Source: Halichondria panicea (lineage: Eukaryota; Porifera; Demospongiae; Suberitida; Halichondriidae). From it: a DNA stretch of 64,000 nt. The translations under genes were made by a program, and so were the position numbers. The notes beneath the pieces are model-generated. The model was given only the letters and a program-made list of their open reading frames with translations. It had not been told where the DNA came from and did no database searches. Below, piece after piece: positions 34 through 60,697 of this stretch; the first letter of the stretch is position 1, and every line of letters starts with the position of its first letter. The DNA is taken from the NCBI RefSeq assembly GCF_963675165.1, contig NC_087377.1, forward strand, positions 11,952,632 through 12,016,631, read 5' to 3'.

Positions 34-1414
34 ATGACACTAATAGAGATAAAGCTCATTACAGTTCTTCTGATTTGCTTTCTGGCTGGATTCAGCACTG
101 GTAAGACTGACCATTCAATTATAGATTTCCTTACATTGCTGCATGTTTCGTTAAGTCCAATATTCAGTGAGTGTTGAGAGACCATGTCCAATGGAAACAG
201 TCACTTTCACCTGCACTGCTCCTGGAGATTCTTTGAGATGGGTACTGTCAGATGTTACTCCCATCGATATCCTCTCCACCTCTGGTCTCAATGTACCAGT
301 AATGCAGTCAGGTTACACTGTGACACTGATTGCATTCAACGACACTACATTAACATCTACTCTGTCCAGAACAGCAGAGAATGGGATCACTGTGTCCTGT
401 GTGGACCTGCCTACAACAACTATAGGATCTTCAATGATCCGATTGGTTGGTGAGTTGCAATAAGTGCCTCGTCCGTTATCTCACAATAAGTTACATATAG
501 ATCTACCAGGATCACCTTCCACCATAAGACACTCCACTCAGAGCAGCTCAGCCAATGAATTCAGTGTATCTGTACAGTGGGACCCACCTACTGAGACTGG
601 TGGTAGAGATGACCTCACCTACACAGTGACCGTCTCACCTCCGGCCCAGCTCTCTGCTACTGTCCTCACATCTACCTCTGTCACCGTGACTGCTCAATAC
701 AATGTGGACTACACTGTCAGTGTTGTGGCTACCAATTGTGCTGGGAACAGTACAACTGCTGACTACAACTTTAGGATTGGTGAGTATTATTATTTTGACA
801 CAAATTGTCAACTCCTTCTCAGGTAAATGTCCTGTGTTGACCAACCCCATGAATGGAGCCTTTGGACCAGTCTCCAGCAGATTATCAGGATCCACAGTAA
901 CCATCCAGTGTGATGCTGGGTATGTGTCTGTTGTTGCGATAGTGACATGTGAGGGTACACTGATATGGAGTCCAGACCCTGAGGCTATTGAGTGTACATC
1001 ACTAACCACACCTACTCCCACAACTCGTTAGTTAAGCTTTTGGTATACATGAATTCTATTACACATGCAGCCCCTCCAATAAACGGCACGGCTCCACTAT
1101 CCCCACCACTTGAACCACCTACAGCTGCACCTTGTAATTGTAATTGTGCCAGCCTATCTGATGGGAGTCGATTTGATGCAGCTGTCTCCATCAGTGTGGT
1201 TGTCACAGCAATTGTATTCATGATAATAGGATTATTTGTGGGACTCTTGATAATGTATTTGTTCATGCATAAGAAGAATGTGTACTCCCCTTCAGCTAAA
1301 GAGCAAGCTAACGTAGGACCCACTGTACCAGCTGGTCCTGTTTATGAGGAGGTGTCACCCAAGGAGGAGATTGAACTAAATACTAACCAGGCGTATGGAC
1401 CAGTAGGACTGTGA
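34..1414 (+). CDS. Receptor gene 1, subfamily A (Ig-FN3-CCP-TM)
   Basis: Five exons, 34-100, 168-449, 501-779, 823-1026 and 1071-1414, give 391 codons with every junction in phase 1 and GT-AG borders (the exon 4 donor is GTTAGT). Exon 1 is a hydrophobic signal peptide (MTLIEIKLITVLLICFLAG). Exon 2 is an Ig-like domain: the TVTFTC cysteine, the RW of strand C, and a second cysteine in ITVSC. Exon 3 is an FN3 domain (VQWDPP near its start, YTVSVVATNCAG near its end). Exon 4 is a CCP domain (CPVLTNP to AIEC). Exon 5 carries a short remnant of a second CCP (PINGTAPLSPP), a Cys-rich stalk, a TM helix with GLFVG, a basic HKK stop-transfer and the conserved tail (YEEV, NQAY, GPVGL). It is probably a cell-surface recognition receptor. 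It is closest to the gene at 42068. Its 5' flank lies outside the window. The exon structure is seen; the function is inferred. Confidence 0.88.
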
Positions 1415-2330
1415 AATTTCTAGTTATTTTCATCAACAGTTAATGTACATGTATGTAAACAATTAACGCAATTAATATAGCACATACTGCAACTGTTCAT
1501 TATCAACAACTTAAGAACAATGTAAACAGAGTTGTTGGCATAAGTCATGTAGCTACGTAGCTGTTTCATTTTTCCTGGTCTGAAAGGATTGCTTCAGCTG
1601 AAAATACGCACCTCGATTAAAGGCCATGTGTATATTCATACATGTACATGTGAAAGTGTCTTTGTTAACAATAAATTATTCATAATCGATTAATGACATC
1701 TGTTAATAATGCACCGTAATTACATATATTATTATTCTATGGAGAAATTGCTGAGGTAGCAATATTATTCTGTATTTAGCTATCTAGTAACTTTACTAGT
1801 GTGTGTCCAGGGGCACATGGGCACATGAAAAGCAATGGGGAGACTGCAGAATTAACTCAATATATGCAAGGCTGGAAGAAGATGAGAAAGTTGGCAGTAA
1901 CAATCAACTCAATGTCCTACTCAAACTATAACCTCTGAACAAAAGGAAAACCTCTCTATCATATCCGTAAATATCAATAAACGATAATAATTGTAGGCAG
2001 TACAAAGGGTTTGTAAATGGTAAGCATCAGTCAATCAATAAACACAATCTGTACTAGGGTGGATAGATTTGGTAAAGGCTTCAGAATAATAAGCAACAAT
2101 CACTCAGCATGATCCAAACAGCCGGTAAAGACCCACTATACTAAAAACATTAAGTGAGACAACAATAAGGATTGAATTGCATGTGTGTGCGTGTGTGGGG
2201 AGGGGGGGGTATTTTAATCAATAAAATTAAGATTCATGTATGCCTGTGGTTGCTTACGTAGATGTTATTAGTGAATAGCTTGTATACAGTCCCACTTACT
2301 CATTACCACTAGATCTACCACATGCCATAT
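1415..2330. repeat. 3' flank and segmentally duplicated spacer
   Basis: No gene is seen. 1415-1707 is nearly identical to 43469-43759, downstream of the sister receptor gene, including an AATAAA-like site near 1671. At 1707 the match stops inside a sequence that at 43.7 kb continues into a pogo/Tigger-like element end. From about 1709 onwards the sequence instead matches 40730-41170, upstream of the same sister gene. The two matches together mark a duplicated unit of receptor gene plus spacer. Confidence 0.7.
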
Positions 2331-5590: not shown

Positions 5591-5612
5591 CGTATCCTAG
5601 GTGATTTCCAGT

Positions 5613-7646: not shown

Positions 7647-9870
7647 ATGACACTAATAGAGATAAAGCTCATTAGAGTTCTCCTGATTTGCTTTCTGGCT
7701 GGCTTCAGCACTGGTAAGAGTGACTTCAATTATAGATTTCCTTACATTGCTGCATGTTTCATAAAGCACAATATTCAGTGAGTGTGGAGAGACCATGTCC
7801 AATGGAAACGGTCACTTTCACTTGCATTGCTCCTGGAGACTTCTTGAGATGGGAACCGTCAGATACAGCTCGCACGCGCACAATCACTGTCCGCTCCACC
7901 TCTGGTCTCAATATACCCGATGTTGTATCAGGTTACACTGTAACACTGATTGCATTCAACGACACTACATTAACATCTACGCTGTCAATAACAGCAGAGA
8001 ATGGGATCAATGTGTCTTGTGTGGACCCACTGCCTACTCTAACCACTATTGGATCTTCAATAATCCAATTGGTTGGTGAGTTGCAATAAGTGCCTTGTCC
8101 GTTATCTCACAATAAGTTGCATAGATCCACCAGGGCCACCGTCCACCATCAGACACTCCATTGCAAGCAGCTTAGCCAATGACGTTAATGTATCTATACA
8201 GTGGGACCCTCCTACTGATACTGGTGGTAGAGATAACCCCACCTACACAGTGACCATCTCACCTCCGGCCCAGCTCTTTGCAACTGTTCTCACATCCACC
8301 TCTGTCACTGTGACTGCTCAATACAATGTGGACTACACTGTCAGTGTTGTGGCTACCAACTGTGCTGGGAACAGTACAACAGCTGAGTACAACTTTAGTA
8401 TTGGCAAGTTTTACTTTTTTTTGGATACTGTGTAAACTTGATTCTTTTCAGGAGACTGTCCTGTGTTGACCAATCCCATGAATGGAGCCTTTGGACCACC
8501 TACCAGCAGATTGCCAGGATCTACAGTAACCATCCAGTGTGCTGTTGGATATGTGTCTGCTCTTGCGATGGTGACATGTGATGTTACACTGATGTGGAGT
8601 CCTGACCCTGAGGCTATTGAGTGTACATCACTAACCACACCTACTCCTAAAACTCGTGAGTTGAATTCTTGACTGTATACAAACACTTAATATTATTTGT
8701 TTCTCCTCACAGCTCCAATGAACTGCACAGCTTCACTATCATCACCACAGAATGGCACCATCAGTGATTATTCAGTACCAGCTCTACCCGGTACACAAGT
8801 GATCTTCCAGTGTGATGATGGACTATTCCCTGAGGGGATAATGACTGCCACCTGTCTAGCTACAGGAGAGTGGAACAAGATCCTGGGGAAGATCGTCTGC
8901 AGAAATGAGTCTAGTAAGCTATACCTACCTGGTTTATGGTTCAGTGTACCGTATAGCGGGTAATTTTCGTGGGGTAAAATATTCGTTATTTTCGTGGGCA
9001 AGCTGGCCTCCACGAAATGTTAACCTAGGCGTGGCTTACCAGAACGTAGGAATGCAAGCAGGCAACGAGACTAAACGAAATTTTTACTCACGAAACCACC
9101 GTTTCTCGAGTTGAACGAATTTTTTACCCCACGAAAATTACCCGCTATACAGTACTCAAAGTTCGAATTACTAAAATGGAAATATATAATGCCATTTTAC
9201 ATCAATCATATTCTTGTACCCAGTTTCCTGTGTCCTGCCTGTCCCTCCACTCAATGGAGCATTACTCAACACCAACTTTCAGAACACTAACCTAATTGAG
9301 GGCTCAGTCATTACCTTCCAATGTGATCCTGGGTTCTCACTAGTGGGTGCAGTGACTGCCACTTGTAACAACTCTGGTTTTTGGTATCCTGACCCGGCTC
9401 TATGGGATTGTGTATCTAGAAGTTGTACGTACACACAAGTTACTATAAGCTGATACAAGAACCTTTTACGATTATGACTAAAAATGAATAGCTACAATCA
9501 TAGTCTTATATAGTTTACTCTTGTGATGCACGCCCTCCCATACATATATTGTCTATTGGAACTCTCTATACTGATATTTTGTTAATATAGCCTCCTCCCA
9601 TGCACAGTTCAATCACCCACTCTATTTACCGGAGAGATTCTTTCTATCAGTGTGGTTGTCACGGCAGTTGCTTTCATAGTCATTGGATTCCTCGCTGGAC
9701 TCTTAGTGAAGCATTTTTGCTCTTGTAAGAAGGCAGTGTACTCCCCGGCAGCTGAAAATAAAGTTAACTTAAGACCCACTGCACCAGTTGGTCCTGTTTA
9801 TGAGGAAGTGTCACCCAAAGAGGAGATTGAACTGAACACTAACCAGGCGTATGGACCAGTAGGACTGTAA
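7647..9870 (+). CDS. Receptor gene 2, subfamily A (Ig-FN3-CCP x3-TM)
   Basis: Seven exons: 7647-7713 (signal peptide), 7779-8075 (Ig-like), 8125-8403 (FN3), 8452-8655 (CCP1), 8713-8913 (CCP2), 9224-9421 (CCP3) and 9608-9870 (TM plus tail), giving 502 codons. The FN3 exon ends at a GC donor (GCAAGT at 8404); a GT there would break the shared phase-1 frame. The last splice is ambiguous: a phase-2 pair (exon end 9428, next start 9591) is also open. CCP3 (SCVLPVPPLNGALL to WDCVSR) is absent from the other A genes. The tail is intact: KKAVYSPAAE, VYEEV, NQAYGPVGL. The TM has GFLAG. The CCP2-CCP3 intron carries an inverted-repeat element (8948-9153). The Ig loop between RW and SGYT is the longest of the A genes. 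The role as a surface recognition receptor is inferred. Confidence 0.87.
8948..9153. mobile_element. ACCGTATAGCGGG MITE-like element inside an intron
   Basis: The left end accgtatagcgggtaatttt and the right end aaaattacccgctatacagt are inverted copies; cgtggggtaaaa and ttttaccccacg extend the pairing inward. It is 206 bp with no transposase frame and sits between the CCP2 and CCP3 exons of receptor gene 2. Related copies lie at 25877, 29437, 33561, 39209, 41778, 53069, 62572 and 63584. Confidence 0.8.
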
Positions 9871-13794: not shown

Positions 13795-13845
13795 GTTTAC
13801 AGTTGGAACTTAGCTTAGTTAAATCATAGAGCTAGATGTAGCTCT

Positions 13846-15918
13846 GTGATATTGTCTTGGCCTAATTTCTTATTTTTACTTTTGCTTTATAGACACACAG
13901 CTACAGGTGAGTCCAATACAGTATCTAAAATATATATACTAGATCTCCATACCATTAACTTCAACAGAGGCCTCTCTGGTGTCCAACAGCAGTGTTACAT
14001 GTCCTGGAGAGGCAGTTCTGTTCACATGCTCTGTGCCTGGTGATATGTCTAGTGTACTGAGATGGCAAGTCGATCCTCCAGCAGAGTCTGGGTTAATGAC
14101 TATGCAAAGTACACTCTTCCTTGGTTCTCTAGTCGGTCGAAGGGACACATTTGGATTTGGAGTGATCATGTTTGAGGCTGTTCTTGTGAGCAGTGACGGA
14201 GTAAACCTGACTTCTACTCTCATCAACCTCAGTGAAGTGTCTGTACTGGATGGAAGCATTGTCACCTGTACTTTAAATGGTCTTACAGTTGTTGAACTAC
14301 AGCAGACAATATTGGTTGCTGGTGAGGAGCTATCTTTACTAATCTAGCACAGTCTCTTATATTGATGTCACACACAGGTAATCCAACCTCTCCACTAAAC
14401 CCAAGATTATCCTCCACTCTAAATCAACCCAGTTCCTCTAATATCTCTCTGGACTGGGAGGCTCCCTCCTCTACTGGTGGTGTGTCTATCAGGTATGTCC
14501 TCATTATCTCCCCAACATCTCTCTCCGGGTCACCAGTCACTGTGGACACCACCTTAGCACAAATCACTGTCTCCTACAACGTTATATACAATGTGACTAT
14601 CAGAGCTGACAACTGTGCTGGAATGAATGAAACTAGAATTGTGAATCTGAGTAAGCTCATTAAACGTAATGTACATTGTATATCTATGCTCTTTCTCTTA
14701 CAGTTGTGTGCCCCACACCGTCTACTGCTGCTAGTGTGACTATCATCAACACACCTCCTGTCACTATTGGTGGATCCATGCTCACCTTCACTTGCAGTGG
14801 AGACAATGAAGTGAGAACCTCAACCTGCGGCAGTAGTGGATGGTCTCCTGACCCTGGGACCTTTGACTGCAGCAGTCCGATTACAGGTATATAATCTTAA
14901 TCATAAATTTGTACATGCTTCTTTTCATTGGTGTCCTCATTAGATCCCCCAGTCACCTGTGGCTCTCCTGATGCACCATCCAGAGGTAGTGTGGACATCA
15001 GTGGTGGGACACCACCCTTCTCACTGGGTTCAGAGGTAACCTATCGCTGTGACGAGGGACTGTTCCCCCCTAATGTGAGGACCAGCACATGCACTGATGT
15101 GGGAGGTAGGGGAGAGTGGGTGGAGAATCCTGGGAGCTTGATGTGCAGGGAGAGACCAGGTGAAATGTAGTTGATCAGAACAAAATTTTCCTGCGAAAAA
15201 ATAATTTTTGTCTGCATGATCTGTCTACAATTGTATTCAATGGCAGGTCATATAATATTGGGTGCTCATGTTGAGCTGATGAGATACAAACATCTGTCAT
15301 GTGCTATAGTCATAGTATAATCATATGATACAGATATTTTCTGACCGTCCATATCATTATAGTCAACTGCACTGTACCTGTTGAGCCCTGCACAACGGTG
15401 CTATAGTGGACCATGAGAGGTTGAACAAGACAGTGTTGGAGGGAACAGTGCTGACTTACCATATGCAGTGTGACAATCGACTTTCATTGACTGGACCCAA
15501 CACCATTACTTGCACTAATGCTGGAGTCTGGAGCACTGAGCCTGAGGCAATCATGTGTGTACTTATGCATGACTGAAGGTGATATACAATTATATATAGA
15601 TGAGCTTTGTAATTGTTCGCTATTTATATACTACCGGTATCTCATCTAACAGTTTCTACTGTCGCTTCCTTGTCCACTTCTGCAACTGTCGCTATCAGTG
15701 TGGTCATCACTTTCATTGTCACTCTAGTCATTGGGTTCCTCACTGGACTGCTGGTGATGCATCTTTTCTCTCGTAAGAAAGCAGTGTACTTCCCAGCAAC
15801 TGAAGGACAATCTAATGTACGACCTACTGCACCAAATGGTCCTGTTTATGAGGAGGTGTCACCCAAAGAGGAGATTGAACTCAACACAAACCAAGCATAC
15901 GGACCAGTAGGACTGTGA
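13846..15918 (+). CDS. Receptor gene 3, subfamily B (Ig-FN3-CCP x2-TM)
   Basis: Exons: signal peptide ending at 13906 (about 13846-13906), Ig-like 13968-14321, FN3 14378-14650, CCP1 14704-14886, CCP2 14944-15159 and TM/tail 15653-15918, all in phase 1. The hydrophobic leader (ILSWPNFLFLLLLYRH) has no in-frame ATG in its exon, so translation probably starts on a short upstream exon I could not place; 13846 is only the left edge of the visible open frame. Ig signature: VTCPGEAVLFTC, RW, then SIVTC. FN3 has SSTGGVSIRYVL. The TM has GFLTG, and the tail has RKKAVY, YEEV and NQAYGPVGL. A third CCP exon (15363-15578) is broken; skipping it keeps the frame. 3' flank homology pairs this gene with the pseudogene at 52.2-54.9 kb. 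Confidence 0.8.
15363..15578 (+). pseudogene. Broken CCP3 exon of receptor gene 3
   Basis: This is homologous to the intact exons at 50528-50731 and 59128-59331, with acceptor and donor preserved. Small insertions of +2, +6 and +4 relative to the intact copies shift the frame, and TAG appears at 15404-15406. The total length is still a multiple of three. The flanking exons are phase 1-1, so a transcript that skips this exon remains open. Confidence 0.75.
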
Positions 15919-17768: not shown

Positions 17769-17878
17769 CTAAGGATTGGAGTTATGCTCTCGTCGGATTT
17801 CTTGTTTCCACACTTTTTTGTGGTTCCCCTGGCCAATCCTAGCAATTTTTCACATTGCAAATGTTTTTCTAGTCGGAT
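17769..17878. mobile_element. Solo terminal repeat of a foldback element
   Basis: ggattggagttatgctctcg ... through gtttttctagtcggat matches the right terminal repeat of the element at 55352-55877 almost base for base. No left end is present nearby. Confidence 0.7.
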
Positions 17879-17957
17879 ATATATAGGGCTGGGGTTTATG
17901 GTAGTTAAACCCCACCCAGTTGCTATGATACAGACCCCAAGTGGGGTATATAAAATA

Positions 17958-18065: not shown

Positions 18066-18106
18066 GAGTTTAGTTGCTAGGTTCATTTCAAAAACTAACC
18101 GAAAGA

Positions 18107-42067: not shown

Positions 42068-43468
42068 ATGACACTAATAGAGATAATAAAGCTCATTAGA
42101 GTTCTTCTGATTTGCTTTCTGGCTGGCTTCAGCACTGGTAAGACTGACTATTCAATTATTGATTTCCTTACATTGACACTGCATGTTTCATAAAGCCCAA
42201 TATTCAGTGAGTGTGGATAGACCATGTCCAATGGAAACAGTCACTTTTACCTGCACTGCTAATGGAGATATCTTGATATGGGACCTGCCTGGAAATCGTA
42301 TCACTGTTCTCACCACCTCTGATCCACTAGTAATGCAGTCAGGCTACACTGTGACACTGATTGCATTTGATAACGATACATTAACTTCTACTCTATCAAG
42401 AACAGCAGAGAATGGGATCACTGTGTCCTGTTCCGAGATTGTGTCTACTCTAACCACTATAGGATCTTCAACAATCCGTTTGGTTGGTGAGGTCTTGTCC
42501 ATTGTCCATTGTCTGTATGTGTAAAAAATGTATATATAGATCCACCAGGACCACCTTCTGCTGTAAGACATTTTATTTTGAGCAGCTCAGTCAATGAAGT
42601 CAGTGTATCTGTACAGTGGAACCCTCCTACTGAGACTGGTGGTAGAGATGACCCCACTTACACAGTGACCATCTCACCTCCGGCCCAGCTCTTTGCAACT
42701 GTCCTCACATCCACCTCTGTCACTGTGACTGCTCAATACAATGTGGACTACACTGTCAGTGTTGTGGCTACCAACTGTGCTGGGAACAGTACAACTGCTG
42801 ACTACAACTTTAGGATCGGTGAGTCGACATCGTTAAAACAGCAACTATATATATATACTGACTCCCTCTTGTGCAGGTGGCTGTCCTGCATTGACCAACC
42901 TCACGAATGGAGCATTTGGACCAGTCTTCAGCAGATTGCCTGGATCAACAGTAACCATCCAGTGTGATGCTGGGTATGTGTCTGTTGTTGCGATGGTGAC
43001 ATGTGAGGGTACACTGATGTGGAGTCCAGACCCTGAGGCTATTGAGTGTACATCACTAATCACACCTACTCCCACAACTCGTTAGTTAAGCTTTTGGTAT
43101 ACATTAATTCTATTACACATGCAGCCCCTCCAATAAACTGCACGGCTCCACTATCCCCACCACTTGAACCACCTACAGCTGCTCCTTGTAATTGTAATTG
43201 TGCCAGCCTATCTGATGGGAGTCGATTTGATGCAGCTGTCTCCATCAGTGTGGTTGTCACAGCAATTGTATTCATGATAATAGGATTATTTGTGGGACTC
43301 TTGATAATGTATTTGTTCATGCATAAGAAGAATGTGTACTCCCCGTCACCTAAAGAGCGAGCTAACGTAGGACCCACTGTACCAGCTGGTCCTGTTTATG
43401 AGGAGGTGTCACCCAAAGAGGAGATTGAACTAAATACTAACCAGGCGTATGGACCAGTAGGACTGTGA
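42068..43468 (+). CDS. Receptor gene 6, subfamily A (Ig-FN3-CCP-TM)
   Basis: Five exons: 42068-42137, 42208-42486, 42540-42818, 42877-43080 and 43125-43468, giving 391 codons in phase 1 throughout. It is a sister of receptor gene 1: the last exon, its intron and the 3' flank are nearly identical, including the truncated second CCP (PINCTAPLSPP) fused to the Cys-rich stalk. The Ig exon is clearly different: after TFTC it reads TANGDILIWDLPGNRITVLT and then TSDPLVMQSG, with codon-sized length changes. FN3 is typical (NPPTETGGRDDPTYTV). The TM has GLFVG; the tail has HKKNVYSP, YEEV and NQAYGPVGL. This pairing of identical and divergent exons is unusual. Surface receptor role inferred. Confidence 0.88.
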
Positions 43469-44299: not shown

Positions 44300-46243
44300 A
44301 TGACACTAATAAAGATAATAAAGCTCATTAGAGTTCTTCTGATTTGCTTTCTGGCTGGCTTCAGCACTGGTAAGACTGACTATTCAATTATAGATTTCCT
44401 TACATTGCTGCATGTTTCATAAAGCCCAACATTCAGTGAGTGTGGAGAGACCATGTCCAATGGAAACAGTCACTTTCACCTGCACTGCTCCTGGAGATTC
44501 CATGAGATGGGTACCATCAGATGCAACTCCTATCACTATCATCTCTTCTCCCTCTGGTCTCAATGTACCCAATGTTGTATCAGGTTACACCATAACACTG
44601 GTTGCATTCAATGACACTACATTAACATCTACTCTGTCAAGAACAGCAGAGAATGGGATCACTGTGTCCTGTGTGGACCCACTGCCTACTCTAACTACTA
44701 TAGGATCTTCGACGATCCGATTGGTTGGTGAGTTGCAGTTAGCTATAGTGTATCGTCCATTGTCTGACTAAGTTACATAGATCCACCAGGACCACCTTCC
44801 ACCATCAGACACTCCATTCTAAGCAGCTCATCCAATGAAGCTAGTGTATCTGTACAGTGGGACCCTCCTACTGAAACTGGTGGTAGAGATGACCTCACCT
44901 ACACAGTGACCATCTCACTTCTGGCTCAGCTCTCTACTACTGTCCTCACATCCACCTCTGCCACTGTGACTGCTCAATACAATGTGTACTACACTGTCAG
45001 TGTTGTGGCTACCAACTGTGTTGGGAACAGTACAACAGCTGAGTACAACTTTAGGATCGGTGAGTCGACATTGTCTTTAAACAGCACACTTCACTGACCC
45101 CCTCTAGTGCAGGCAACTGTCCTGTGTTGACCGACCCCATGAATGGAGTGTTTGGACCAACCACCAACAGTTTGCCAGGATCTACAGTAACCACCCAGTG
45201 TGACACTGGGTATATGTCTGCTGTTACGATGGTGACATGTGAGGGTACACTGATGTGGAGTCCAGACCCTGAGGCTATTGAGTGTACATCACTAATTATA
45301 ACCACACCTACTCCTACAACTCGTGAGTTTAAGCTCTTGACTATATATTTACCTCGTGTGTGCATGCGCAGCGCACAGCAGAGGATAGAGTGATTGGTGT
45401 GTGTGTGTCGGTTTGTGTATGTGTGTATACACAACAATGAGCTGTTTGAGCGAACTAGACACTTTCATGGACTGCTTTAACTGCTCTACTTATATATGCA
45501 GTTTAACTTGTAGGTAATCTTCGAAGATGACAAACTAATCAATCTAATCGTTGCTTTATAGATTCATTATCATATTATATTCCCCTAATGATAAAGTTGT
45601 TACGGTAAAAATTATTATATCTGTTTTGCTGCTGTGCGATGAAGCTCAACGCACGGGGTGAATGCTCTACTGAGCATCTTGTTAAATACTTCCAACAGTA
45701 TGTTATTATTTACACAGCTGCTCCTCCAATAAACTGCAAGGCTCCACTATCCCCACCAAGGAATGGCACCATCAGTGATCATTCAGTACCAGCTTTTTCC
45801 GGTACACAAGTGAAATTCTAGTGTGATGTTGGACTGTTCCCTGAGGGCATAATGACTTCCACCTGTCTAGCTACAGGAAAGTGGGACAAAAACCCAGTGG
45901 AGACAGTCTGCAGAGGCAAGTGTATTCATTACTTAAGTAATCACCTTGAACCACTTATACAGCTGTTTCTTACAATTGCGCCAGCCTAGATGGGAGTCGA
46001 TTTGATGCAGCTGTCTCCATCAGCGTGGTTGTCACGGCAGTTCTATTCACCGTCATTGGATTGTTGATGGGACTTTTGATAATGTATTTGTTCATTCATA
46101 AAAAGAATGTGTACTCCCCGTCAGCTAAAGAGCGAGCTAACGTAAGACCCACTACACCAGCTGGTCCTGTTTATGAGGAGGTGTCACCCAAAGAGGAGAT
46201 TGAACTGAATACTAACCAGGCGTATGGACCAGTAGAACTGTGA
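44300..46243 (+). CDS. Receptor gene 7, subfamily A, with a stop-containing CCP2 exon
   Basis: Exons: 44300-44369 (signal peptide), 44437-44727 (Ig-like), 44781-45059 (FN3), 45113-45322 (CCP1) and 45963-46243 (stalk, TM, tail), giving 376 codons when the CCP2 exon (45718-45915) is skipped. That exon carries an in-frame TAG at 45819-45821, where sister genes have CAG, and ends at a GC donor (45916). All exons are phase 1-1, so skipping gives an open reading frame with one CCP, the same architecture as genes 1 and 6; including it would give a soluble truncated form. The FN3 has TISLLAQL in place of the usual TISPPAQL. The last residues are YGPVEL, not GPVGL. The intron after CCP1 contains the right flank of the dispersed minisatellite-bearing unit. 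Confidence 0.82.
45718..45915 (+). pseudogene. CCP2 exon of receptor gene 7 with premature stop
   Basis: Homologous to 22376-22561 (CCP2 of gene 4). TAG at 45819-45821 replaces the Gln codon before the Cys of the second strand. Acceptor and GC donor are otherwise retained. The downstream half stays open and similar, so the stop appears recent. Confidence 0.8.
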
Positions 46244-47330: not shown

Positions 47331-47716
47331 GGTATTCAATAGCATCTGGTTTTCACTCTGTTCTTTTGATTGTAGATCTATATGTTTTCTTTCACTTTGT
47401 TCTTTTCATTGTATAATCAGGCTCAGCATGCAGTCAGCACTAATCAACCACAAAATTCATTTAAGAAATATGATTCTTATACCAATCATTCTTGTGTGGT
47501 ATAGCTATATAAACTGGAATGGATCCATCTAACAGTATACTGTTTTGTTTTCAAGGGATGTATTTAATTTTCAGTCTCAGTCTCTAGTAAGTTCAGAATC
47601 TACTGAGTAATGTATGCTATATAGATCTATGCAGATATGGTGTGTTTAGCTATTGAACAAAGAGGGAAATTAGGCAAGTTTTTTATCACACATGCCGTTA
47701 TGGTTTATTTTTGCAG

Positions 47717-48894
47717 CCATTCAGTTGACATCCAGCAGTGGTGATGGTGCGGTATGTCCAAATGACCCTGTTGTCTTCACCTGCTCCGTTAGTGGAACTG
47801 TTCTACAATGGATAGCTGATCCTCCACCTGGGTATATCGTATCTGGGTAGGTGACACAACTTTTATTCTCTATTTCTGGTACTCTACTGCCTGCTGGAGT
47901 TGAAGGATTCATGTTTCAAGCTGCTGTAACGAATACAAGTAATGGTACTCTTACCTCCACTCTCACTACCATCACTGAGGTGTCCATGCTGAATGGCAGT
48001 GTTGTCACATGTTCCAGCGGTGGAACAATGGAGTCACGATCAATCACAGTGGCCGGTCAGTGAGCCAAACATATAACACTGTATATATTATTGCATCTCA
48101 AACAGAGCCTCCATTGTCTCCATCAACTCCAATATTGGCTTCACAACATAATGTAGTCAGTTCCTCTATTATCACTCTGGACTGGGACTCCCCCTCTTCT
48201 ACTGGTGGTGTGTCTGTCACTCAACTATGTCCTCATTATCTCCCCAAACCTTTCTCCGGGTCACCAGTCACCGTGGAGACCACCTCAGCACAGATAACTG
48301 TCTCCTACAACACACTCTACAATGTGACCATCAGAGCTGTTAATTGTGTTGGAATGAGTGATGCCTCAATGTTGGTTACTATACCGTCCATAGGTTAGTA
48401 TAAGTGCTAAATTAATGTTAGTTTACTTCTATTTTCATGCAGTTGCCTGTCCCTCTTCCCTCTCTGCTGCTAGTGGGGTGGTAAACAATTACATCCAGAT
48501 ACCCCGTGTATACTACTGTGCATGGGCTCCACACTTACCTTCACTTGTTCTGAAGATAATCAGATGAGAACCTCCATCTGTGGCAGTGATGGAAGGTGGA
48601 ATCCTGACCCAAAGGAGTTTTTGTGTCCAACAATGTGATATATTTTTTGATTGTTCTCTTACAGAACCCCCAGTGACCTGTCCAGTTCACGGAGCTCCCT
48701 CTATGGGTAGTGTGAACACTAGTGGTCAGTCTTACACAGAGGGGTGACAGGAGGTCACATATCAGTGCAATGATGAACTGTTCCCCATAGGTATTCTGAT
48801 TGCCACTTGCGCAAGAGACGAACAAAATGTAGTGTGGGAGCCTACCCCAGTACGGTGGTGTGCAGGACAGTTCCAGACCAGTATAGGACTGTGA
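47717..48894 (+). pseudogene. Receptor gene 8, subfamily B pseudogene, tail deleted
   Basis: Exon-like blocks: Ig-like 47717-48055, FN3 48106-48393, CCP1 48443-48634 and CCP2 from 48665. Disablements: TAG at 47848-47850 in the Ig exon, a frameshift in CCP1, and TGA at 48745-48747 in CCP2. The FN3 exon shows compensating indels (a +4 at the SYVLTI position and a -1 shortly after) that leave it open but replace about ten residues with TQLCPHYLPKPF. At about 48873-48876 the CCP2 end (GTTCCA) is joined directly to GACCAGTA..GGACTGTGA, the last codons of the family tail, so CCP3, TM and nearly all the tail are deleted. A signal exon could not be placed. Only about 250 bp separate it from gene 9. 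Confidence 0.82.
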
Positions 48895-49141: not shown

Positions 49142-51067
49142 ATGCAAATACAGGCAGTTATTATCAGCATCCAGCTGTTTTATCTTGCTTCAGGTAAGTT
49201 ACATAGATCATCTATACTAGCATGTGTTCACTGGAACACACAATTTGTTTCAGCCACACTGACATCCACCCCCCCTGTGGCTTGTCCTGATGACACTGTC
49301 ACCTTCACCTGCTCTCTGCCTAGTGATGTTGATGGGACCATTCGCTGGACAGTAACTCCACCGCCAGGGTTGAATACAGTCAGTGTAAATGGAGTAGTGA
49401 ATAACATTGGTAGAACATTAACGCTTGGTACTGATGAGATGTTCATGTTCCGAGCTGCTTACTCTGGACTGGATGGAGGCATGGTCACATCCACTCTCAC
49501 CACCCTCTCTATGGTGACAGTGCTGGATGGAGCTATGGTACAGTGTGAAGACTTGGGAGGAGCAGGAGGAGGTCTAATACCCATCCGTGTGGCTGGTATA
49601 AGTCTATATAATGATGTTGATCTGAGTATTTTAATAACAATAATTGAACAGATATACCCTCTCCTCCACTGAACCCAGCACTGTTCTTCAATCAAAACCA
49701 ACCCAGTTCTTCCATTATCACTCTGGACTGGGACTCCCCCTCCTCTACTAGTGGTGTGTCTATCAGCTATGTCCTCACCATCTCCCCAACACCCCTCTCC
49801 GGGTCACCAGTCACCGTGGAGACCACCTCGACAGAGATCACTGTCTCCTACAACACACCCTACAATGTGACCATCAGAGCTGTCAACTGTGCTGGAATGA
49901 GCAATGCCTCAATATTGGCGATACTCTCAATAGGTTACTTAAAAATCTCAATAGGTTACTACAATTTGTTTGATGTAAATGAATCACACTTAATTCTCTC
50001 CCCACGTGCATGCAGTTACCTGTTCCTCTTCCCCCTCTACTGCCAGTGGAGTCGTGAATGTTCAAATACCCAGTGTGCCTACTGTCGGCTCAAAATTAAA
50101 CTTTGGTTGCTCTGGAGAAAATCAGATGAGAACCCCTACCTGTGGTAGTGATGGACGATGGAATCCTGACACTGAGGATTTCATGTGTCCAACAGTGGGT
50201 GAGTTGATGTGCGCTATACGCATGCAGCTGTCGCTTACAACTTTATGTTTATAACATCACCGTATAGAACCTCCAGTGACATGTCCAGTTCCCGGGGTCC
50301 CCTCCATGGGTAGTGTGAGTACTGTTGGTCAATCTTACACAGAGGGGTCACAGATCACATATCAGTGCAACGAGGGACTGTTCCCCATGGGTGTCCTGAC
50401 TTCCACTTGCACAAGAAACGGACAAAATGGAGTGTGGGAGCCTAACCCCAGTACGGTGGTGTGCAGGACAGTTCCAGGTAATTTAATTCAGTTTCTTCTG
50501 TTTATTAACTTTTGTGGGTCGACACAGTCAACTGTACTCTTCCTACCGAGCCATCCAACGGTGCTATAGTGGACTATAAGAGGTTGAACGAGACAGTGTT
50601 GGAGGGAACAGTGCTGACTTACCAGTGTGACAATGGACTCTCACTGACAGGACCTAACAACGTCATTTGCACCAATGCTGGAGTCTGGAGCACTGAGCCT
50701 AAGGCAATCATGTGTGTGTCACCAACTGAAGGTGAAGGCCATCATGTGTGTACTTGAATGTGAATTATGGTTCGTAATCCCATAATACATCGATTTCACA
50801 GGTCCTACTGCCACCTCCCTATCCATTGGTGCAGTTGCTGCTATCAGCGTAATTATTACTTTCTTTGTGGCTGCCATTCTTGGATTCCTCACTGGACTCC
50901 TAGTGATGCATCTTTCCTCTCGTAAGAAGGCAGTATACTCTCTAGCAACTGAAGGACAAGCTAACGTAGGACCCACACCACCAGCTGGTCCGGTTTATGA
51001 AGAGGTGTCACCTAAAGAGGAGATTGAACTGAACACTAACCAGACGTATGGACCAGTAGGACTGTGA
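49142..51067 (+). CDS. Receptor gene 9, subfamily B (Ig-FN3-CCP x3-TM), complete
   Basis: Seven exons: 49142-49193 (signal peptide MQIQAVIISIQLFYLAS), 49254-49595 (Ig-like), 49652-49933 (FN3), 50016-50198 (CCP1), 50268-50477 (CCP2), 50528-50731 (CCP3) and 50802-51067 (TM/tail), giving 512 codons, all phase 1, all GT-AG. Ig signature: PVACPDDTVTFTC, IRW, then MVQC. The FN3 has SISYVLTISPTPLSGSP. Each CCP has four cysteines and a Trp before the last. The TM carries GFLTG; the tail has RKKAVYSLATEGQ, YEEV and NQTYGPVGL (Thr replaces Ala before the last Tyr). This is the cleanest B gene and the best template for judging its damaged relatives. Surface recognition receptor by inference. Confidence 0.9.
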
Positions 51068-52230: not shown

Positions 52231-54942
52231 ATGGTGAACTTGTTGGTGATCAAGCATCTTCTGTTAGCAGTGATGATTGGCTCTCAGATAGGAGGTATGA
52301 ATGCAAAACAAGATTGTGCTTCATGTGTGATTGAAGCTGTTCCATTTCAACAGAGGCCTCATTAGTGTCCAACACCAGTGTGGCGTGTCCTGGAGAGGCA
52401 GTTCTGTTCACATGCTTTAAGCCTGCCGCTGTATTGAGATGGCAAGTGGACCCTCCAGCGAAGTCTGGATTGATGCCAGTTTAAAGTACACTCTTTATTG
52501 GTTCTCAAGTTGGTCGAAGGGACACATTTGGATCTGGAGTGATCATGTTTGAGGCTGTTCTTGTAAGCAATGATGGTGGAACTCTGACATCCACCCTAAT
52601 CAACCTCAGTGAAGTGTCTGTACTGGAAGGAACCAATATTACCTGTATACTACTACCAATTCAAATGGTATTACAGTTGCAATACAGCAGACAATCTCTG
52701 TTGCTGGTGAGTAGCTATTTAATCTTAACACACATGCAGTTAAACTTATAGACTTTTATTGCACATGCATATAGGTAATTCAACTTCTCCATTAAACCCA
52801 AGAATATCCTCCACTCAAAACCAGCTCAGCTCCTCTCTTGTTATTCTGGACTGGGACTCCCCCTCCTCTACTGGTGGTGTGTCTGTCAGCTATATCCTCG
52901 TCATTTCCCCAACACCTCTCTCCAAGTCACCAGTTACCGTGGAGACTACCTTGGCACAGTTCAATATCTCTTACAACATTCCCTACAACGTGACCATCAG
53001 AGCAGTTAACTGTGTTGGCAGTAGCCGTGACAACATGGTGATGATCCCTTCTATTGGTTAGTTCATATACCGTATAGCCGGTAATTTTCGGGGGACAAAA
53101 TATTTGTAGTTTTCGTGGTTGAAGCTCTGACCATGAATATTTTCCCCACGAATGAAGCGACCTTTAACTGCAGTGCAATCAGCAACCACGAAAATAATAT
53201 CCACGAAATGTCTAAACCACGAATATTTTGTCCCCCAAAAATTACCCGCTATACGGTATCATTGTCTTAGCTGCGCTCGTTACTACCGTACTACTCTATC
53301 GAGATTACTCCCACGCCCGAAATTACGACCCACTGCTTCTTTTGAGTGAAAGTTCCTGTATAGGCTATTTGCATTAAGAATACGCCCACAAGGAAGTGAT
53401 GCAAACTTGTCAGCGAGCAGTTTATAGTTGTCAAGAAGGTTTAGCAGTTTCTTGTGTAAGCTGGTTGCTGAAGAGATAGCTACATAGATAGTTAGATCCA
53501 ATGATTATCACTCCTATTTGCAAGTATAAGAGACAAGGACAATCTTCTCTGAATCTCTGTTGACAGACTTTTATTCAGCTACTTACCCATGCATTACCAT
53601 CGTTGTATAATTATTGCAAGCACTGGCATGCCCCAGAAAATACTAAGTTTCTTCATGAGTAGGCGTAATTTCGAGACAAAACTACCATTATCGAAATTAC
53701 TGTGTAGCATGCAATTAGGGTGGGCGTAGAGTACGGTAATAATTATTTTTGCTTCTCTAATGCAGTTACCTGTCCCTCCAACCCATCACCTGCGAATAGA
53801 GTGACCATCGTTGGTGCTCCACCACTGCCTCCAGTAGTAGGATCAATCCTGAGCTTCAATTGCAATGGACAGACAGTAACAGCAACCTATGAGAGTGTTA
53901 GACGATGGTCACTTGATCCCACCACTTACGTCTGTATCTCAGGTATAAGGTTATTGCTTTCACTCTATACTGTTATTAGGCCTTCTCTCAGAGCTCACAG
54001 GTGGCTCTCTTGTTGCACCGTCTAGAGGCAGTGTGGACGTCAGTGGTGGGACACCACCCTTCTCACTGGGTTCACAGGTCATCTATCGCTGTGATGAGGG
54101 ACTGTTCCCCCTTGATGTGAGGACCAGTACATGCACTGATGTGGAGGGTAGTGGAGAGTGGGTGGATAATCCTGAGAGTTTGGTGTGCAGGGAGAGGCCA
54201 GGTGAAATGTATGATTATATAGCTGTTGTTGAGCCTGTGCATTTTGTGAATGTATGCATGTGCATTTAGGAAATACACCTTTTGACGGACTTCTTGTATG
54301 TACAATTCTTAATTATCATAGCATGGATTATCAATTTTGTTTTAGCAAACATACTCATGCAATTGAATCACTGTTTAACCGTCCCTATAATTATTATTAT
54401 AGTCAACTGCACTGTACCTGCATGCTGAGCTGTGCAACGGTGCTATAGTGAACTATATGAGAGGTTGAATGAGACGGTGTTGGAGGGAACAGTGCTGACT
54501 TACCAGTGTGACAATGGACTCTCACTGACTAGACCCAACACCATCACTTGCACTAATGCTGGAGTGTGGAGCACAGAGCCTGAGGAAATCAAGTGTGTAC
54601 TTGTGACTGAAGGTGATGAGCTTTGTAATTGTTTGCTATCTACTATCTAATCTTGCAGTTTCTACTGTCGCTCCTTTGTTCTCCATTTCTGCAACTGTCG
54701 CTATCAGTGTGGTCATCACTTTCATTGTCACTCTAGTCATTGGGTTCTTCAATGAACTGCTGGTGATGCATAATTATTTTCTCTCGAAAGAAAGCAGTGT
54801 ACTCCCCGGCAACTGAAGGACAAGCTAACGTAGGACCCACTGCACCAGCTGTTCCTGTTTATGAAGAGGTGTCACCCAAAGAGGAGATTGAACTTAACAC
54901 TAACCAGGCGTATGGACCATTAGGACTCTGTGAAACTCGTTT
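52231..54942 (+). pseudogene. Receptor gene 10, subfamily B pseudogene
   Basis: Blocks: signal peptide 52231-52294, Ig-like 52354-52706, FN3 52775-53056 (intact), CCP1 53766-53942, CCP2 53980-54201, CCP3 54403-54612 and TM/tail 54659-54942. Defects: TAA at 52482-52484 and a later frameshift in the Ig exon, a missing cysteine in CCP1, loss of the first CCP2 cysteine (ACAGGT for ACCTGT), a frameshift with TGA at 54426-54428 in CCP3, a +4 indel just after the TM (cataattatttt) leading to TGA at 54814-54816, and an altered end (GGACTCTGTGA). The TM also loses the second Gly of GxxxG (GFFNE). It pairs with receptor gene 3 by exon and 3' flank homology. An inverted-repeat element sits in the FN3-CCP1 intron. 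Confidence 0.85.
53069..53257. mobile_element. ACCGTATAGC MITE-like element in the gene 10 intron
   Basis: The left end accgtatagccggtaatttt and the right end aaaattacccgctatacggt are inverted copies, with inner cgggggacaaaatatt / aatattttgtccccc. 189 bp, no transposase. Confidence 0.8.
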
Positions 54943-55351
54943 ATTTTAATATTCAATACATTCAACAAGTTAATTGTAATTATAGACTTGCTAGTGTTTC
55001 ACTTTATTGATAGCGTATAACCTACATGCATGTATAGATTAATGGTCTCAAATTACATTTATATCCCTATATAATTTATACAGGTTATTTTTTGCTGTAA
55101 AACCTGTCATTATTATGTACATGTAGTTTTTCTGACTTCCTCAATCAGAAATAGAATAAAGTGGTGTATTCTTTATGAACCAAGTGATCAAACTCGACAG
55201 TTATTATAACTACGCCTCGGTGTGTGGTAGTATGCGCATTATATACCTAGTATAATCTGTTGTTTTCCTTGCAGCTTTCATTATTCAGTATGCATGAGGT
55301 ACGTAATGTTGACAATGTAAACAATATAGCACTGCATCTGTTCATATAATT
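54943..55351. repeat. 3' flank duplicated from receptor gene 3
   Basis: 54950-55330 matches 15919-16330, including the block at 55080-55170 that resembles the 5' flanks of genes 9 and 11. No gene is seen. Confidence 0.55.
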
Positions 55352-55877
55352 ATCCGACTAGAAAAACATTTGCAATGTGAAAAATTGCTAGGATTGGCCA
55401 GGGGAACCACAAAAAAGTGTGGAAACAAGAAATCAGACGAGAGCATAACTCCAATCCGTTACAACGTCAATCACATGTACTGGTAGTTTTCCATGTTTTC
55501 CCGGCCAATTTTTACTGGTGGGGTGATGACCAATCCCTATATATTTATTATACATCCGTTTTGGAATGTGCGGGCATATTAATCGCGATGATTTGTGATG
55601 AATTGATGTTCCTAATACATGCAGTGTTGAGCACAGGTACACACAGTCCATCCATGCGTAATAACATGCACGGACCATACTGCATGGAATGATGTGGTGG
55701 ATGGAAGCTGGTAGATGGATCTGGAACACAGTCTATATACTATGTATTGTACATGTTCATGACGTTGTAACGGATTGGAGTTATGCTCTCGTCTGATTTC
55801 TTGTTTCCACACTTTTTTGTGGTTCCTCTGGCCAATCCTAGCAATTTTTCACATTGCAAATGTTTTTCTAGTCGGAT
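55352..55877. mobile_element. Foldback element with about 129 bp terminal inverted repeats
   Basis: The left arm (55352-55480) starts atccgactagaaaaacattt and runs through gaaccacaaaaaagtgtgg to acaacgtca. The right arm (55749-55877) is its reverse complement with few mismatches. The 270 bp interior has no transposase. The mirrored short frames starting MWKQEIRREHNSNPLQR on both strands are simply the two arms. A solo arm occurs at 17769-17878. Confidence 0.85.
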
Positions 55878-57652: not shown

Positions 57653-60600
57653 ATGCAAGTACTGGCAGTTATTATCAACATCCAGCTGTTTTCTCTTGCT
57701 GCAGGTAAGTTATAATACGTAATTATAGATCTGTACATACATGCATGTGTTCACTGGAACACACAATTTGTTTCAGCCACACTGATATCCACTCCCCCTG
57801 TGGCCTGTCCTGATGACACTGTCACCTTCACCTGCACTCTGCCTGGTATCTTCATACGATGGGATGTCATTTCTCGAAATATAAATATGATCAGCATATC
57901 ATTGAGTACCAGCAACACTGATGTCACACTAGGTACATTTCGTGGTGTTCTCACTAACTCCAGTGGAGGAATGCTCACTGCCACTCTTGCCTCACTGTCT
58001 GAGGCCTCAACTGTGGAGGGTACTATGGTGGAGTGTGTGGGAGTGAGCTCACGAGAGGGTCCTCTCACTATCACTGTGGCTGGTAAGTTTTTTGTTTGTA
58101 ACATAAAATCGTGGAACAAGTATCACTGATTATAATACACCCATAGATCTACCCTCTCCTCCACTCAACGCAAGAGTATCCTCCACTTTAAATCAACCCA
58201 GTTCCTCTAATATCACTCTGGGCTGGGACCCTCCCTCTTCTACTGGTGGTGTGTCTGTCAGCTATGTCCTCACCATCACCCCAACACCTCTCTCTGGGTC
58301 ACCAGTCACCGTGGAGACCACCTTGACACAGGTCACTCTCTCTTACAACACACCCTACAATGTAACCATCAGAGCTGTCAACTGTGCTGGAATAAATGAA
58401 ACTATAATTGCAAAACTGAGTAAGCCATTTCATGATCATACAATAATCGATCATGTACACTTTCTCTGTAATGCAGTTGTGTGCCCCACACCGTCTACTG
58501 CTGCTGGGGTGACCATCACCAACACACCTCCTGTCACTATTGGTGGATCCATGCTCACCTTCACTTGCAGTGGAGACAATGAAGTGAGAACCTCAACCTG
58601 TGGTAGTAGTGGGTGGTCTCCTGACCTGGGCACCTTTGACTGCAGCAGTCCAGTTACAGGTATACTATACAAGTACATGTATAGCTGATTAATGCATACA
58701 TGCATGCTTAATTTCCTTCCATCGGTGACCTCATTACAAATCCCCCAGTCAGCTGTGGTTCTCCTGATGCACCATCTAGAGGTAGTGTGGACATCAGTGG
58801 TGGAACACCACCCTTCTCACTGGGTTCAGAGGTCACCTATCGCTGTGATGAGGGACTATTCCCCCCTGATGTGAGGACCAGCACATGCACTGATGTGGGG
58901 GATAGGGGAGAGTGGGTGGAGAATCCTGGGAGCTTGGTGTGCAGGGAGACACAAAGTATAGTCTACATTAATTTTCTGTTCATTATAGCTATTATATATA
59001 GTGAATGTACTGCACTGTACCTACTGTTAGTGCTGATCCAATACTACTATAGTACCAAGTGTGTCACAACGGCCGGTGCTATACATAGCTACAGTATAAT
59101 TTTAGTATACCCTACATTTCACCACAGTCAACTGCTCTCTACCTGAGGAGCCCTCCAATGGAACTATATTGGACTATGAGAGGTTGAATGAGACAGTGTT
59201 TGAGGGAACAGTGCTGACTTACCAGTGTGACAATGGATTCTCATTGACTGGACCCAACATCATCACTTGCACTAATGCTGGAGTGTGGAACCCTGAGCCT
59301 GAGGCAATAATGTGTGTGTCACCAACTGAAGGTGAGGGTTATTAACCTCTGGCACATAGGCAACCATGGGAGTTATGGTAATTCCTAGGTTTGTTTGTCT
59401 GTGTTTTTAAGTCTGCTCACCTGGTTGCCATAGCGCCTTCGTTTACAGTACGGATAGCCTCAACGTAACAAGTTATAATTAGTGGAATGCCTGTTGTGAC
59501 CTTGATTGAAAGCAAGCAAAAATAGCTAAGAAGGTATACAATATGTAGCTAAACGTGACTTTAATTTGAGGCACGCCATTACACAAGTCGTACATGATTG
59601 TGTATACGCAGTCATGCAGCCATGTGGAGCCTTATTTTTCACAGGAAGAATTCTTTGCTGGCTCTATACTGTGAGCCTATACTCCGGTCCCACTGGATGT
59701 CAGGTGTCCTATATATACATGTACTTGTAACACTCCTGGCCTCGATTTTTACTGGCTGTGATCCTAACGGTCCGGGACTCCCATTCATTTTCAGGGTTTA
59801 TTTCAGTGTGCTAGTCTTAGCGGGTGACATTTCACCTGCTTAAAATGTTCTGTCACCCATTTGGAGCATTTAAATTGTGTACCTATAAATCATCCCTCAA
59901 TTGCAATTAAATTTCCTACTTAGTAACTTGTAACAACAATGTGCATTATCCCTAACAATGTGTTTGCTTAGACAATCAGTAACCACAATGATTTCACATC
60001 ATGTAGCTGGTACATTGTATATATCCGAGTAATCATTGTGAATTTCTCCTTTGGCGGCCACTCATGAGTCAGGGGGCTAATGCCCCCGGCCCATGTTTTG
60101 TCCCTGAAATTTGGCTGGGGAAGTTGGCACCTATGCAAATGGCTCATCTGCCAAATATTTATTCTAGTTAAACGTTAATTATTTGTATAATTATTTTATA
60201 CGAGCGAGGATCAATAATTATAAAAAACTCAAACCCTAATTAGATCTAGTACTGATAATTATCCTTGATAGAACACAATAGTTAGATCGCAAGAGGTCAA
60301 TTTTTCTTCTGATTTGGTTCACCCCAAAATATTCTAGTCACAGTACAACACAGTGTATACTCTAGGTGTGATATACAACTGCCTCATGCAGGCTTCTATA
60401 TATCCATTCCAATCCTCCACAGCTCCGACTGTTACAGCTGCTGCCACCCTATCAACTGGTGCAACTCTTGCCATCAGTGTTACTACTACTTTCGTTGCGT
60501 CTACTATCCTTGGATTTCTCGCTGGACTCCTAGTGATGTATTCGTTTACGCGTAAGAAGGCAGTGTACTACACAAGAAAAACAGCATTATCTGTTGTACA

Positions 60601-60697
60601 ACCCACTAAACCAGTTAGTCCTGTTTATGAGGAGGTGTCACCCAAAGAGGAGATTGAATTGAACACTAACCAGGCGTATGGACCATTAGGACTGTGA
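57653..60697 (+). CDS. Receptor gene 11, subfamily B (Ig-FN3-CCP x3-TM)
   Basis: Seven exons: 57653-57704 (signal peptide MQVLAVIINIQLFSLAA), 57777-58082 (Ig-like), 58147-58419 (FN3), 58477-58659 (CCP1), 58749-58955 (CCP2), 59128-59331 (CCP3) and 60423-60697 (TM/tail), giving 499 codons, phase 1 throughout. At CCP2 the ancestral acceptor (ATTAG) is mutated to ATTAC; the next AG (CCCCCAG, ending 58748) restores the frame with three fewer residues. The last intron is about 1.1 kb, long for this cluster, and shows no exon. The TM carries GFLAG. The membrane-proximal tail is diverged (RKKAVYYTRKTALSVVQPTK), yet the last 30 residues keep YEEV, KEEIEL and NQAYGPLGL, which suggests selection on that C-terminal part. 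Surface receptor role inferred. Confidence 0.88.

Follow-up and report, generated by a model that had tools for sequence, protein, structure and literature searches.

A multi-megabase array of Ig-FN3-CCP receptor genes with one conserved two-tyrosine tail in a sponge genome, a candidate recognition-receptor complex

Results

Ten related receptor genes and a doubtful relative lie on one strand of the window

The DNA studied here is a 64-kb window (the whole stretch analyzed, C1:11952632-12016631) of a sponge genome that was searched over 131.5 Mb in 39 contigs; it carries a tandem series of genes for Ig-FN3-CCP membrane receptors that end in a short conserved tail with two tyrosines. In self-BLAST comparisons, related gene units recur along the window on the plus strand, with gene regions mostly 75-91% identical, and zero domain matches above 20 bits were obtained on the minus strand. 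Gene models built from reading frames and splice sites, together with domain matches, reveal the same exon order from gene to gene: signal peptide (SP), Ig, FN3, between one and three CCPs, and finally an exon for a transmembrane (TM) segment with the short tail. This order, and the variable number of CCP repeats, are as the original prediction, made from the sequence of the stretch, had described them. That prediction had counted eight usable genes, one tailless relative and two pseudogenes in a one-strand tandem cluster. The cluster is real and holds ten related genes, but those strictly intact from end to end number five (G1, G2, G4, G6, and G9; Table 1). Three more are blemished, as G3 has no identifiable signal exon and a frameshifted CCP3, G7 carries a TAG within its CCP2 exon, and in G11 the usual CCP2 donor is gone, with a weak alternative left. 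Both G7 and G11 are open when the damaged CCP exon is skipped, and the same holds for G3 from its Ig exon onward. The remaining two, G8 and G10, are broken copies, which bears out the two predicted pseudogenes. A candidate for the tailless relative is also present, but the evidence for this diverged gene, G5, is weak, with 16.5 bits to an Ig hidden Markov model (HMM) built in this work, a Pfam fn3 match at E 0.13, and no Ig in the Pfam search.

The internal exons as modeled are multiples of three in length, with phase-1 introns between them, again as predicted for the introns. The exceptions are the CCP2 exon of G11, whose 3' border is guessed, and the FN3 exon of G7, for which the models give the start. 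Because these exons are symmetric, loss or skipping of a CCP exon leaves the reading frame unshifted.

Table 1. Receptor genes and conserved tails of the window, in window positions
Feature	Position	Strand	Exons or description	Basis
G1, intact	34..1414	+	SP 34-100, Ig 168-449, FN3 501-779, CCP 823-1026, TM+tail 1071-1414	Gene model, domain matches
G2, intact, 3 CCP	7647..9870	+	SP 7647-7713, Ig 7779-8075, FN3 8125-8403 (GC donor), CCP 8452-8655, 8713-8913, 9224-9424, TM+tail 9608-9870	Gene model, domain matches, Pfam
G3, no signal exon found	13968..15918	+	Ig 13968-14321, FN3 14378-14650, CCP 14704-14886, 14944-15159, CCP3 15363-15578 (frameshift), TM+tail 15653-15918	Gene model, domain matches
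G4, intact	21317..22900	+	SP 21317-21386, Ig 21446-21733, FN3 21796-22074, CCP 22118-22321, 22376-22561 (GC donor), TM+tail 22617-22900	Gene model, domain matches
G5, doubtful	34784..35631	+	Diverged tailless Ig-FN3-like relative	Own Ig HMM, Pfam fn3
G6, intact	42068..43468	+	SP 42068-42137, Ig 42208-42486, FN3 42540-42818, CCP 42877-43080, TM+tail 43125-43468	Gene model, domain matches
G7, open if CCP2 exon skipped	44300..46243	+	SP 44300-44369, Ig 44437-44727, FN3 from 44781, CCP1 45113-45322, CCP2 45718-45915 (TAG), TM+tail 45963-46243	Gene model, domain matches
G8, pseudogene	47674..48891	+	Ig, FN3, CCP fragments broken; no tail match	Reading frames, domain matches
G9, intact, 3 CCP	49142..51067	+	SP 49142-49193, Ig 49254-49595, FN3 49652-49933, CCP 50016-50198, 50268-50477, 50528-50731, TM+tail 50802-51067	Gene model, domain matches, Pfam
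G10, pseudogene	52335..54946	+	Ig exon with a stop, TM exon with a frame break, tail open beyond usual end	Reading frames, domain matches
G11	57653..60697	+	SP 57653-57704, Ig 57777-58082, FN3 58147-58419, CCP 58477-58659, CCP2 from 58749 (weak alternative donor), CCP3 59128-59331, TM+tail 60423-60697	Gene model, domain matches
Tail of G1	1331..1411	+	GPVYEEVSPKEEIELNTNQAYGPVGL	Tail comparison
Tail of G2	9787..9867	+		Tail comparison
Tail of G3	15835..15915	+		Tail comparison
Tail of G4	22817..22897	+		Tail comparison
Tail of G6	43385..43465	+		Tail comparison
Tail of G7	46160..46240	+	Ends VEL	Tail comparison
Tail of G9	50984..51064	+	NQTYGPVGL	Tail comparison
Tail of G10	54854..54928	+	PVYEEV...GPLGL, continues past usual end	Reading frames, tail comparison
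Tail of G11	60614..60694	+	SPVYEEV...GPLGL	Reading frames, tail comparison

The receptors share one tail with two tyrosines

The tails follow the consensus GPVYEEVSPKEEIELNTNQAYGPVGL, with one tyrosine in YEEV and a second in NQAYGPV/L. Of the nine tail exons in the window, five agree exactly in their last 25 residues and the other four show slight differences, in keeping with the near-identity originally noted for these tails. For motif analysis we assembled 49 core tails from the window and from pieces fetched elsewhere in the genome (designated L); they were chosen for P[VL]YEE[VI] and ELNTNQ, which presets the first tyrosine, and they include near-duplicates and the tail of pseudogene G10. 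The second tyrosine is present in 49/49 core tails, and NPxY in 0/49. The immunoreceptor tyrosine-based activation motif (ITAM) reads YxxL/I-x(6-12)-YxxL/I, the corresponding inhibitory motif (ITIM) reads [ILVS]xYxx[ILV], and hemITAM reads [DE]GYxx[LI]. A relaxed form of the ITAM, in which V is allowed and the spacing may reach 13, fits all 49 core tails.

The ectodomain combines CCP repeats with a probable divergent FN3 and a V-set-like Ig domain

The profile check that the original prediction had proposed was run with Pfam and gave a graded outcome. Sushi (CCP) lies above its cut-off of 20.7 in all three full-length proteins (23.4, 74.6, and 55.6 bits). In the same three proteins fn3 is found at the right position and just below its cut-off of 25 (22.9, 23.5, and 23.8 bits; E 5e-5 to 1e-4), and on this sequence evidence the FN3-like exon probably encodes a divergent FN3 domain. 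The Ig domain was not called by Pfam; the best scores, both in one exon, are 13.5 bits for Ig_3 (cut-off 30) and 12.7 bits for Ig_2 (cut-off 27).

Residue spacing and modeled structure nevertheless point to an Ig fold. Residues C20, W32, and C98 (G9 numbering) are invariant in the eight aligned Ig exons of the window (8/8) and have Ig-like spacing. The G9 Ig exon, modeled with AlphaFold (predicted local distance difference test score, pLDDT, 82.1), aligns with T cell receptor (TCR) and antibody V domains; the best match by VIA, a re-alignment of Foldseek's own matches on which the fold claim depends, is to TCR V domains, with a Z of 11.8, a root-mean-square deviation (rmsd) of 2.6, and 101 residues aligned. 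The weaker model of the G4 Ig exon (pLDDT 69.6) also matches TCR V domains (VIA Z 9.6, rmsd 2.4, 90 aligned). The Foldseek list for the G9 model consists mostly of antibody, nanobody, and TCR chains, and its top two rows are doublecortin and CAT4 transporter entries. We read the Ig exon as one that would encode a divergent V-set-like domain, on the basis of the Cys/Trp spacing and the modeled fold.

The window is a slice of a 3.7-Mb array

The original prediction gave the cluster an extent of about 60 kb, which genome-wide tail searches show to be an understatement. Three merged listings place at least 190 distinct tails in C1 11.249-14.928 Mb, a span of ~3.7 Mb; at least three of these places bear a divergent tail of the type found in L003. 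In a search with the 77-residue TM-tail segment, the best 150 of 308 candidates all fall in C1 11.25-14.93 Mb, and the best 150 of 290 candidates from a diverged-tail search all fall in that stretch too. The tail DNA pattern CCNGTNTAYGARGARRTN gave 274 genome matches (177+97), some of which belong to related tails, vs. 2 (1+1) for a reversed control. Positions were listed for 100 of the 274, and 99 of these 100 entered the tally of 190, the one at C1 10.0 Mb being excluded as outside the array. Pieces adjoining the array ends (L039 and L040) contain no strong domain match.

HMMs built from the window (the CCP model has 18 rows, of which that for CCP3 of G3 is in the wrong frame with X at stops and that for CCP2 of G7 has X at its stop) were run on two sets of pieces, neither of them random: 14 taken at tail positions along the array, and 20 of high tail score from the upper part of the TM-tail list, plus strand only. 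The complete Ig-FN3-CCP-TM chain is found in 10 of the 14. L003 has Ig-FN3-CCP with a different tail, and L011 and L012 bear the tail and CCP, with upstream open reading frames (ORFs) that look Ig/FN3-like by eye; in two such ORFs of L011, Pfam finds no Ig or FN3 domain. In the second set, the TM-tail exon is present in 20/20 pieces and an Ig match in 19/20. CCP number varies along the array as it does in the window, with one repeat in 8, two in 19, and three in 9 of 36 complete genes.

Several copies are recent in appearance. L005 and L006 lie ~234 kb from each other and share 98.5% identity over 9.9 kb, and L020 and L021, ~718 kb apart, are 99.95% identical over 1944 bp; the latter belong with L017, L022, and L032 to a group that is otherwise 95-97% identical. 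Identical-scoring tails recur also ~1427 kb apart and in inverted orientation, with copies on both strands. The 64 kb of the window thus belong to an array of type I membrane receptors that spans ~3.7 Mb and has tandem and segmental duplications.

Purifying selection is concentrated in the tail, and Ig variation in segments

Proportions of nonsynonymous (pN) and synonymous (pS) differences were pooled over 36 complete genes, 8 from the window and 28 others. These come from 38 genes with a near-complete Ig match, the filter having set aside two without an FN3, TM or CCP match; genes with a split Ig match and the diverged L011 and L012 stand outside the set, and both members of the near-identical pairs L005/L006 and L020/L021 stand within it. 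Pooled pN/pS is 0.69 for Ig, 0.62 for FN3, 0.61 for the first CCP, 0.68 for the TM-juxtamembrane part, and 0.13 for the 25-residue tail. Bootstrapping over genes gave 0.63-0.74 for Ig, 0.55-0.75 across the non-tail parts, and 0.08-0.19 for the tail, and the 284 closer pairs gave 0.64 for Ig, 0.49 for FN3, and 0.15 for the tail. In the tail, pN is thus ~7.6x below pS, compared with only ~1.5x in the neighboring TM-juxtamembrane part, which that exon also encodes. That strong purifying selection is confined to the tail is well supported.

Variation in the Ig domain is unevenly placed. Over 28 A-type Ig exons, with strands assigned from the weaker (G4) model, the A-B framework (first 17 residues) has a mean column entropy of 0.22 and the E-F turn plus F strand one of 0.35, compared with 1.42 for C-C'-C''-D and 1.68 for F-G. 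In a circular-shift test one of 96 shifts was as good as the observed placement, namely the unshifted one; the segments were picked after a sliding-window view and the test is descriptive only. The segmental variation of the Ig domain resembles that of complementarity-determining regions (CDRs).

A related tail occurs behind a different ectodomain

A related tail, GPVYEEV followed by NEAYGQV or NKAYGQV, was retrieved in 50 rows (29 at E <= 0.001) from C1 at 11.3, 12.9, 14.6-14.75, 16.5-16.6, and 17.66 Mb and from C6; at lower significance the rows extend to C1 9.9-10.0 Mb and to some core tails. At L036 (C1 16.51 Mb) and L037 (C1 17.66 Mb), exons that match IgGFc_binding (183.5 and 176.1 bits), EGF-like (below cut-off), and CCP precede a related two-tyrosine tail on the same strand, and their order suggests that they form one gene at each site. 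With a related tail behind IgGFc_binding exons, the two-tyrosine signature would stand on at least two unrelated ectodomain types. A similar tail is present in L038 (C6 1.16 Mb). In L035 (C1 10.00 Mb), GPVYEEI...NLAYGYV closes an open frame that has a TM-like stretch and lies next to a frame without a Pfam match.

As to possible partners of these tails, the genome has 25 SH2 matches at E <= 1e-11, four of them with internal stops. Two Death-domain open frames lie on the minus strand of L012 (6198-6533 and 5408-5752; C1 ~14.43 Mb) and score 24.8 and 29.6 bits against a cut-off of 22.6, and a frame containing GPVYSEV is found nearby; that the Death-domain frames, which lie within the array, encode signaling partners is possible.

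Other features of the window and genome

Between the receptor genes, a minisatellite with a 27-bp unit runs through ~48 copies at window positions 18847-20087, with patches of similar units at 3911-4065 and 5181-5433. A 218-aa open frame at 4145-4798 on the plus strand has a look that we take to be retroelement-like; Pfam found no match for it or for the ORF at 18074-18220. Short elements at 17773-17885, 55345-55480, and 55749-55877 are ~97-98% identical, two of them mutually inverted, and are possibly copies of a mobile element. Elsewhere, the best 150 of 4112 CCP candidates include dense clusters at C4 0.2-3.5 Mb, C9 5.62-5.68 Mb, C2 6.45-6.48 Mb, and C15 3.860-3.870 Mb, the last repeating at ~1.1-kb spacing. 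A COX1 family search found no mitochondrial contig and gave only a nuclear fragment of mitochondrial COX1 at C1:5280527-5280718, with two TGA codons read as Trp and no tRNA found in it; the fragment has a non-bilaterian look. A DNA pattern for the silicatein active site had 0 genome matches, a result compatible with a sponge and with a divergent silicatein. Ig-like, FN3-like, CCP, Death, and SH2 domains mark the genome as that of an animal.

Discussion

A probable recognition-receptor array with a common output

On balance we think it probable that the locus is an array of V-set-like Ig-FN3-CCP receptors whose diverse ectodomains share one tyrosine-phosphorylation output. That it constitutes a receptor complex with one conserved tail, as the original prediction proposed, is well supported by the scale of the array, the purifying selection confined to the tail, and the segmental variation of the V-set-like Ig domain; a function in recognition is likely, and a role in allorecognition is possible. 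Variable outer parts on an almost unchanged tail are what a recognition system with a single output would be expected to show.

YEEV resembles the consensus site of Src-family SH2 domains. In the mechanism that we envisage, the Ig domain would bind varied ligands, be they other individuals of the species, microbes, or both, and clustering of the receptors would lead a Src-family kinase to phosphorylate the tail. The phosphorylated YEEV and NxAY tyrosines would then draw the same SH2 or PTB adaptors to every receptor, such that many specificities would feed one common output. Duplication, loss of symmetric phase-1 exons, and sequence exchange may keep the repertoire changing.

Several observations weigh against such an array of signaling V-domain receptors. 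Canonical ITAM, ITIM, and hemITAM are each found in 0/49 core tails, so the signaling step is drawn by motif analogy. Pfam gave no Ig match above cut-off in the three full-length proteins or in two Ig exons searched singly, and a plain Foldseek search of the PDB with the G9 Ig model gave no match at E <= 0.001. pN/pS is below 1 in every whole domain, and the variable Ig segments have pN close to pS and both high, a pattern that sequence exchange or relaxed constraint would fit as well as diversifying selection. Tail pS (0.21) is lower than that of the other parts (0.31-0.42), and gene conversion or homogenization may therefore add to the conservation of the tail. In addition, the window HMMs recover only TM and one CCP from L008 (within 7 kb), L011, and L012, and in at least 6 of the 20 pieces of the second set a frameshift or stop interrupts a domain exon.

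Alternative explanations

The receptors might recognize microbes or symbionts rather than other individuals of the species, their diversity tracking microbial ligands, and we regard this as a real possibility, if one that falls short of probable. Large, uneven, and recently duplicated arrays suit microbial receptors too, the IgGFc-binding receptors elsewhere on C1 bear a related tail, and sponge genes with Ig, Sushi, and FnIII domains are described, in the relevant passages of one study, as shifting expression on exposure to microbial patterns (PMC6208332). Against it stands the role in allorecognition that an account of Botryllus ascribes, in the part concerned, to receptors with Ig plus Sushi domains (PMC12065747).

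It is unlikely, though worth weighing, that the tail serves as an endocytic or sorting signal on scavenger or adhesion receptors that do not signal. YxxPhi and NxxY are sorting motifs, and YEEV and YGPV/L fit the first and NQAY the second. However, conservation spans the acidic stretch between the two tyrosines, beyond what a sorting signal needs, and YEEV has the Src-family SH2 likeness noted above in a genome that has SH2 domains; sorting is still compatible with both observations.

We consider it very improbable that the tail owes its conservation to recent duplication and gene conversion only, in an array that is largely a relic. The low tail pS, near-identical copies (99.95% over 1944 bp), and frequent broken copies would suit such a history, but the ~7.6x deficit of pN in the tail against ~1.5x in the TM-juxtamembrane part of the same exon, and the presence of five intact genes within 64 kb, argue otherwise. 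That the size of the array is an artefact of haplotypes laid end to end in the assembly is likewise very improbable, for while blocks recur at 98.5% (~234 kb apart) and 99.95% (~718 kb apart) and allelic divergence could be similar, the unequal offsets of identical-scoring tails (~234, 718, and 1427 kb), the group of five pieces at 95-97% identity apart from one near-identical pair, the copies on both strands, and the mostly 75-91% identity of gene regions within the window speak against a simple doubled haplotype.

Comparison with known receptor systems

Clustered Ig and Ig/Sushi receptors govern self/non-self recognition in Hydractinia and Botryllus, according to the passages concerned (PMC11067881, PMC12065747). 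The fester and FcoR proteins of the fuhc locus of Botryllus schlosseri are, as described there, membrane proteins of one multigene locus with Ig (V-type in FcoRs) and Sushi/CCP domains, and FcoR tails can bear a core Y-x-x-I/L/V motif (PMC12065747). However, the same passages give FcoRs two C2 Ig domains and tails that can bear ITIM or hemITAM, give festers three TM segments, name no FN3, and count over 37 and 53 loci (PMC12065747), compared with one Ig, one FN3, one to three CCP, and one TM segment in the sponge models, one nearly invariant tail, and at least 190 located tails in the array. The sponge receptors are set apart by this description from the form with V-Ig, Sushi, and two C2-Ig domains and from that with three TM segments. 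The allorecognition complex (Alr) of Hydractinia is alike, in the part of its account that bears on this, in having single-pass receptors of the Ig superfamily (IgSF) clustered in one large interval, pseudogenes, and a tyrosine-motif link (PMC11067881); the sponge array is set apart from it, again by description, by its Ig-FN3-CCP order, its common YEEV/NQAYGPV tail, and several times more copies. We do not file the sponge array as a member of either system, from which it differs in domain order, size, and a near-invariant tail that is neither ITAM nor ITIM.

The vertebrate KIR/LILR, NITR, and CHIR families likewise consist of IgSF receptors in tandem that undergo unequal crossing-over, include pseudogenes, and have tyrosines in their tails. 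Some forms are activating and others inhibitory, and they rely on ITAM partners or ITIMs; the core tails of the sponge array, in contrast, contain neither motif. Among sponges, expansions of SRCR and NLR genes are described, in the portions of the reports concerned, as large recognition repertoires (PMC6208332, PMC10855680, PMC12909245), and a Geodia receptor tyrosine kinase is stated in its account to bear Ig (PMC12018476). Unlike the sponge array, these have other domains or a kinase tail. In the openly licensed papers searched we found no account of a multi-megabase Ig-FN3-CCP array or a comparable sponge receptor locus, in agreement with the original suggestion that the complex may be undescribed, and in the main text of a sponge graft transcriptome paper the words immunoglobulin, sushi, fibronectin, and receptor are absent (PMC5450542).

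Implications

A more far-reaching possibility, which we put forward tentatively and hold to be rather doubtful, is that an early-branching animal outside the bilaterians, plausibly a sponge, has in this array a histocompatibility-like supergene. The supergene would comprise V-domain receptors in a multi-megabase repertoire, variable in CDR-like segments and joined to one tyrosine output, and would share a related two-tyrosine tail module with a structurally unrelated receptor class on the same chromosome. If real, it would supply the genetic basis of self/non-self recognition that has long been sought in sponges, and non-bilaterians would have an independent V-domain repertoire. The coincidence of a V-like domain, an array of this size (at least 190 tails over 3.7 Mb), and a near-invariant non-ITAM tail makes the question of recognition directly testable.

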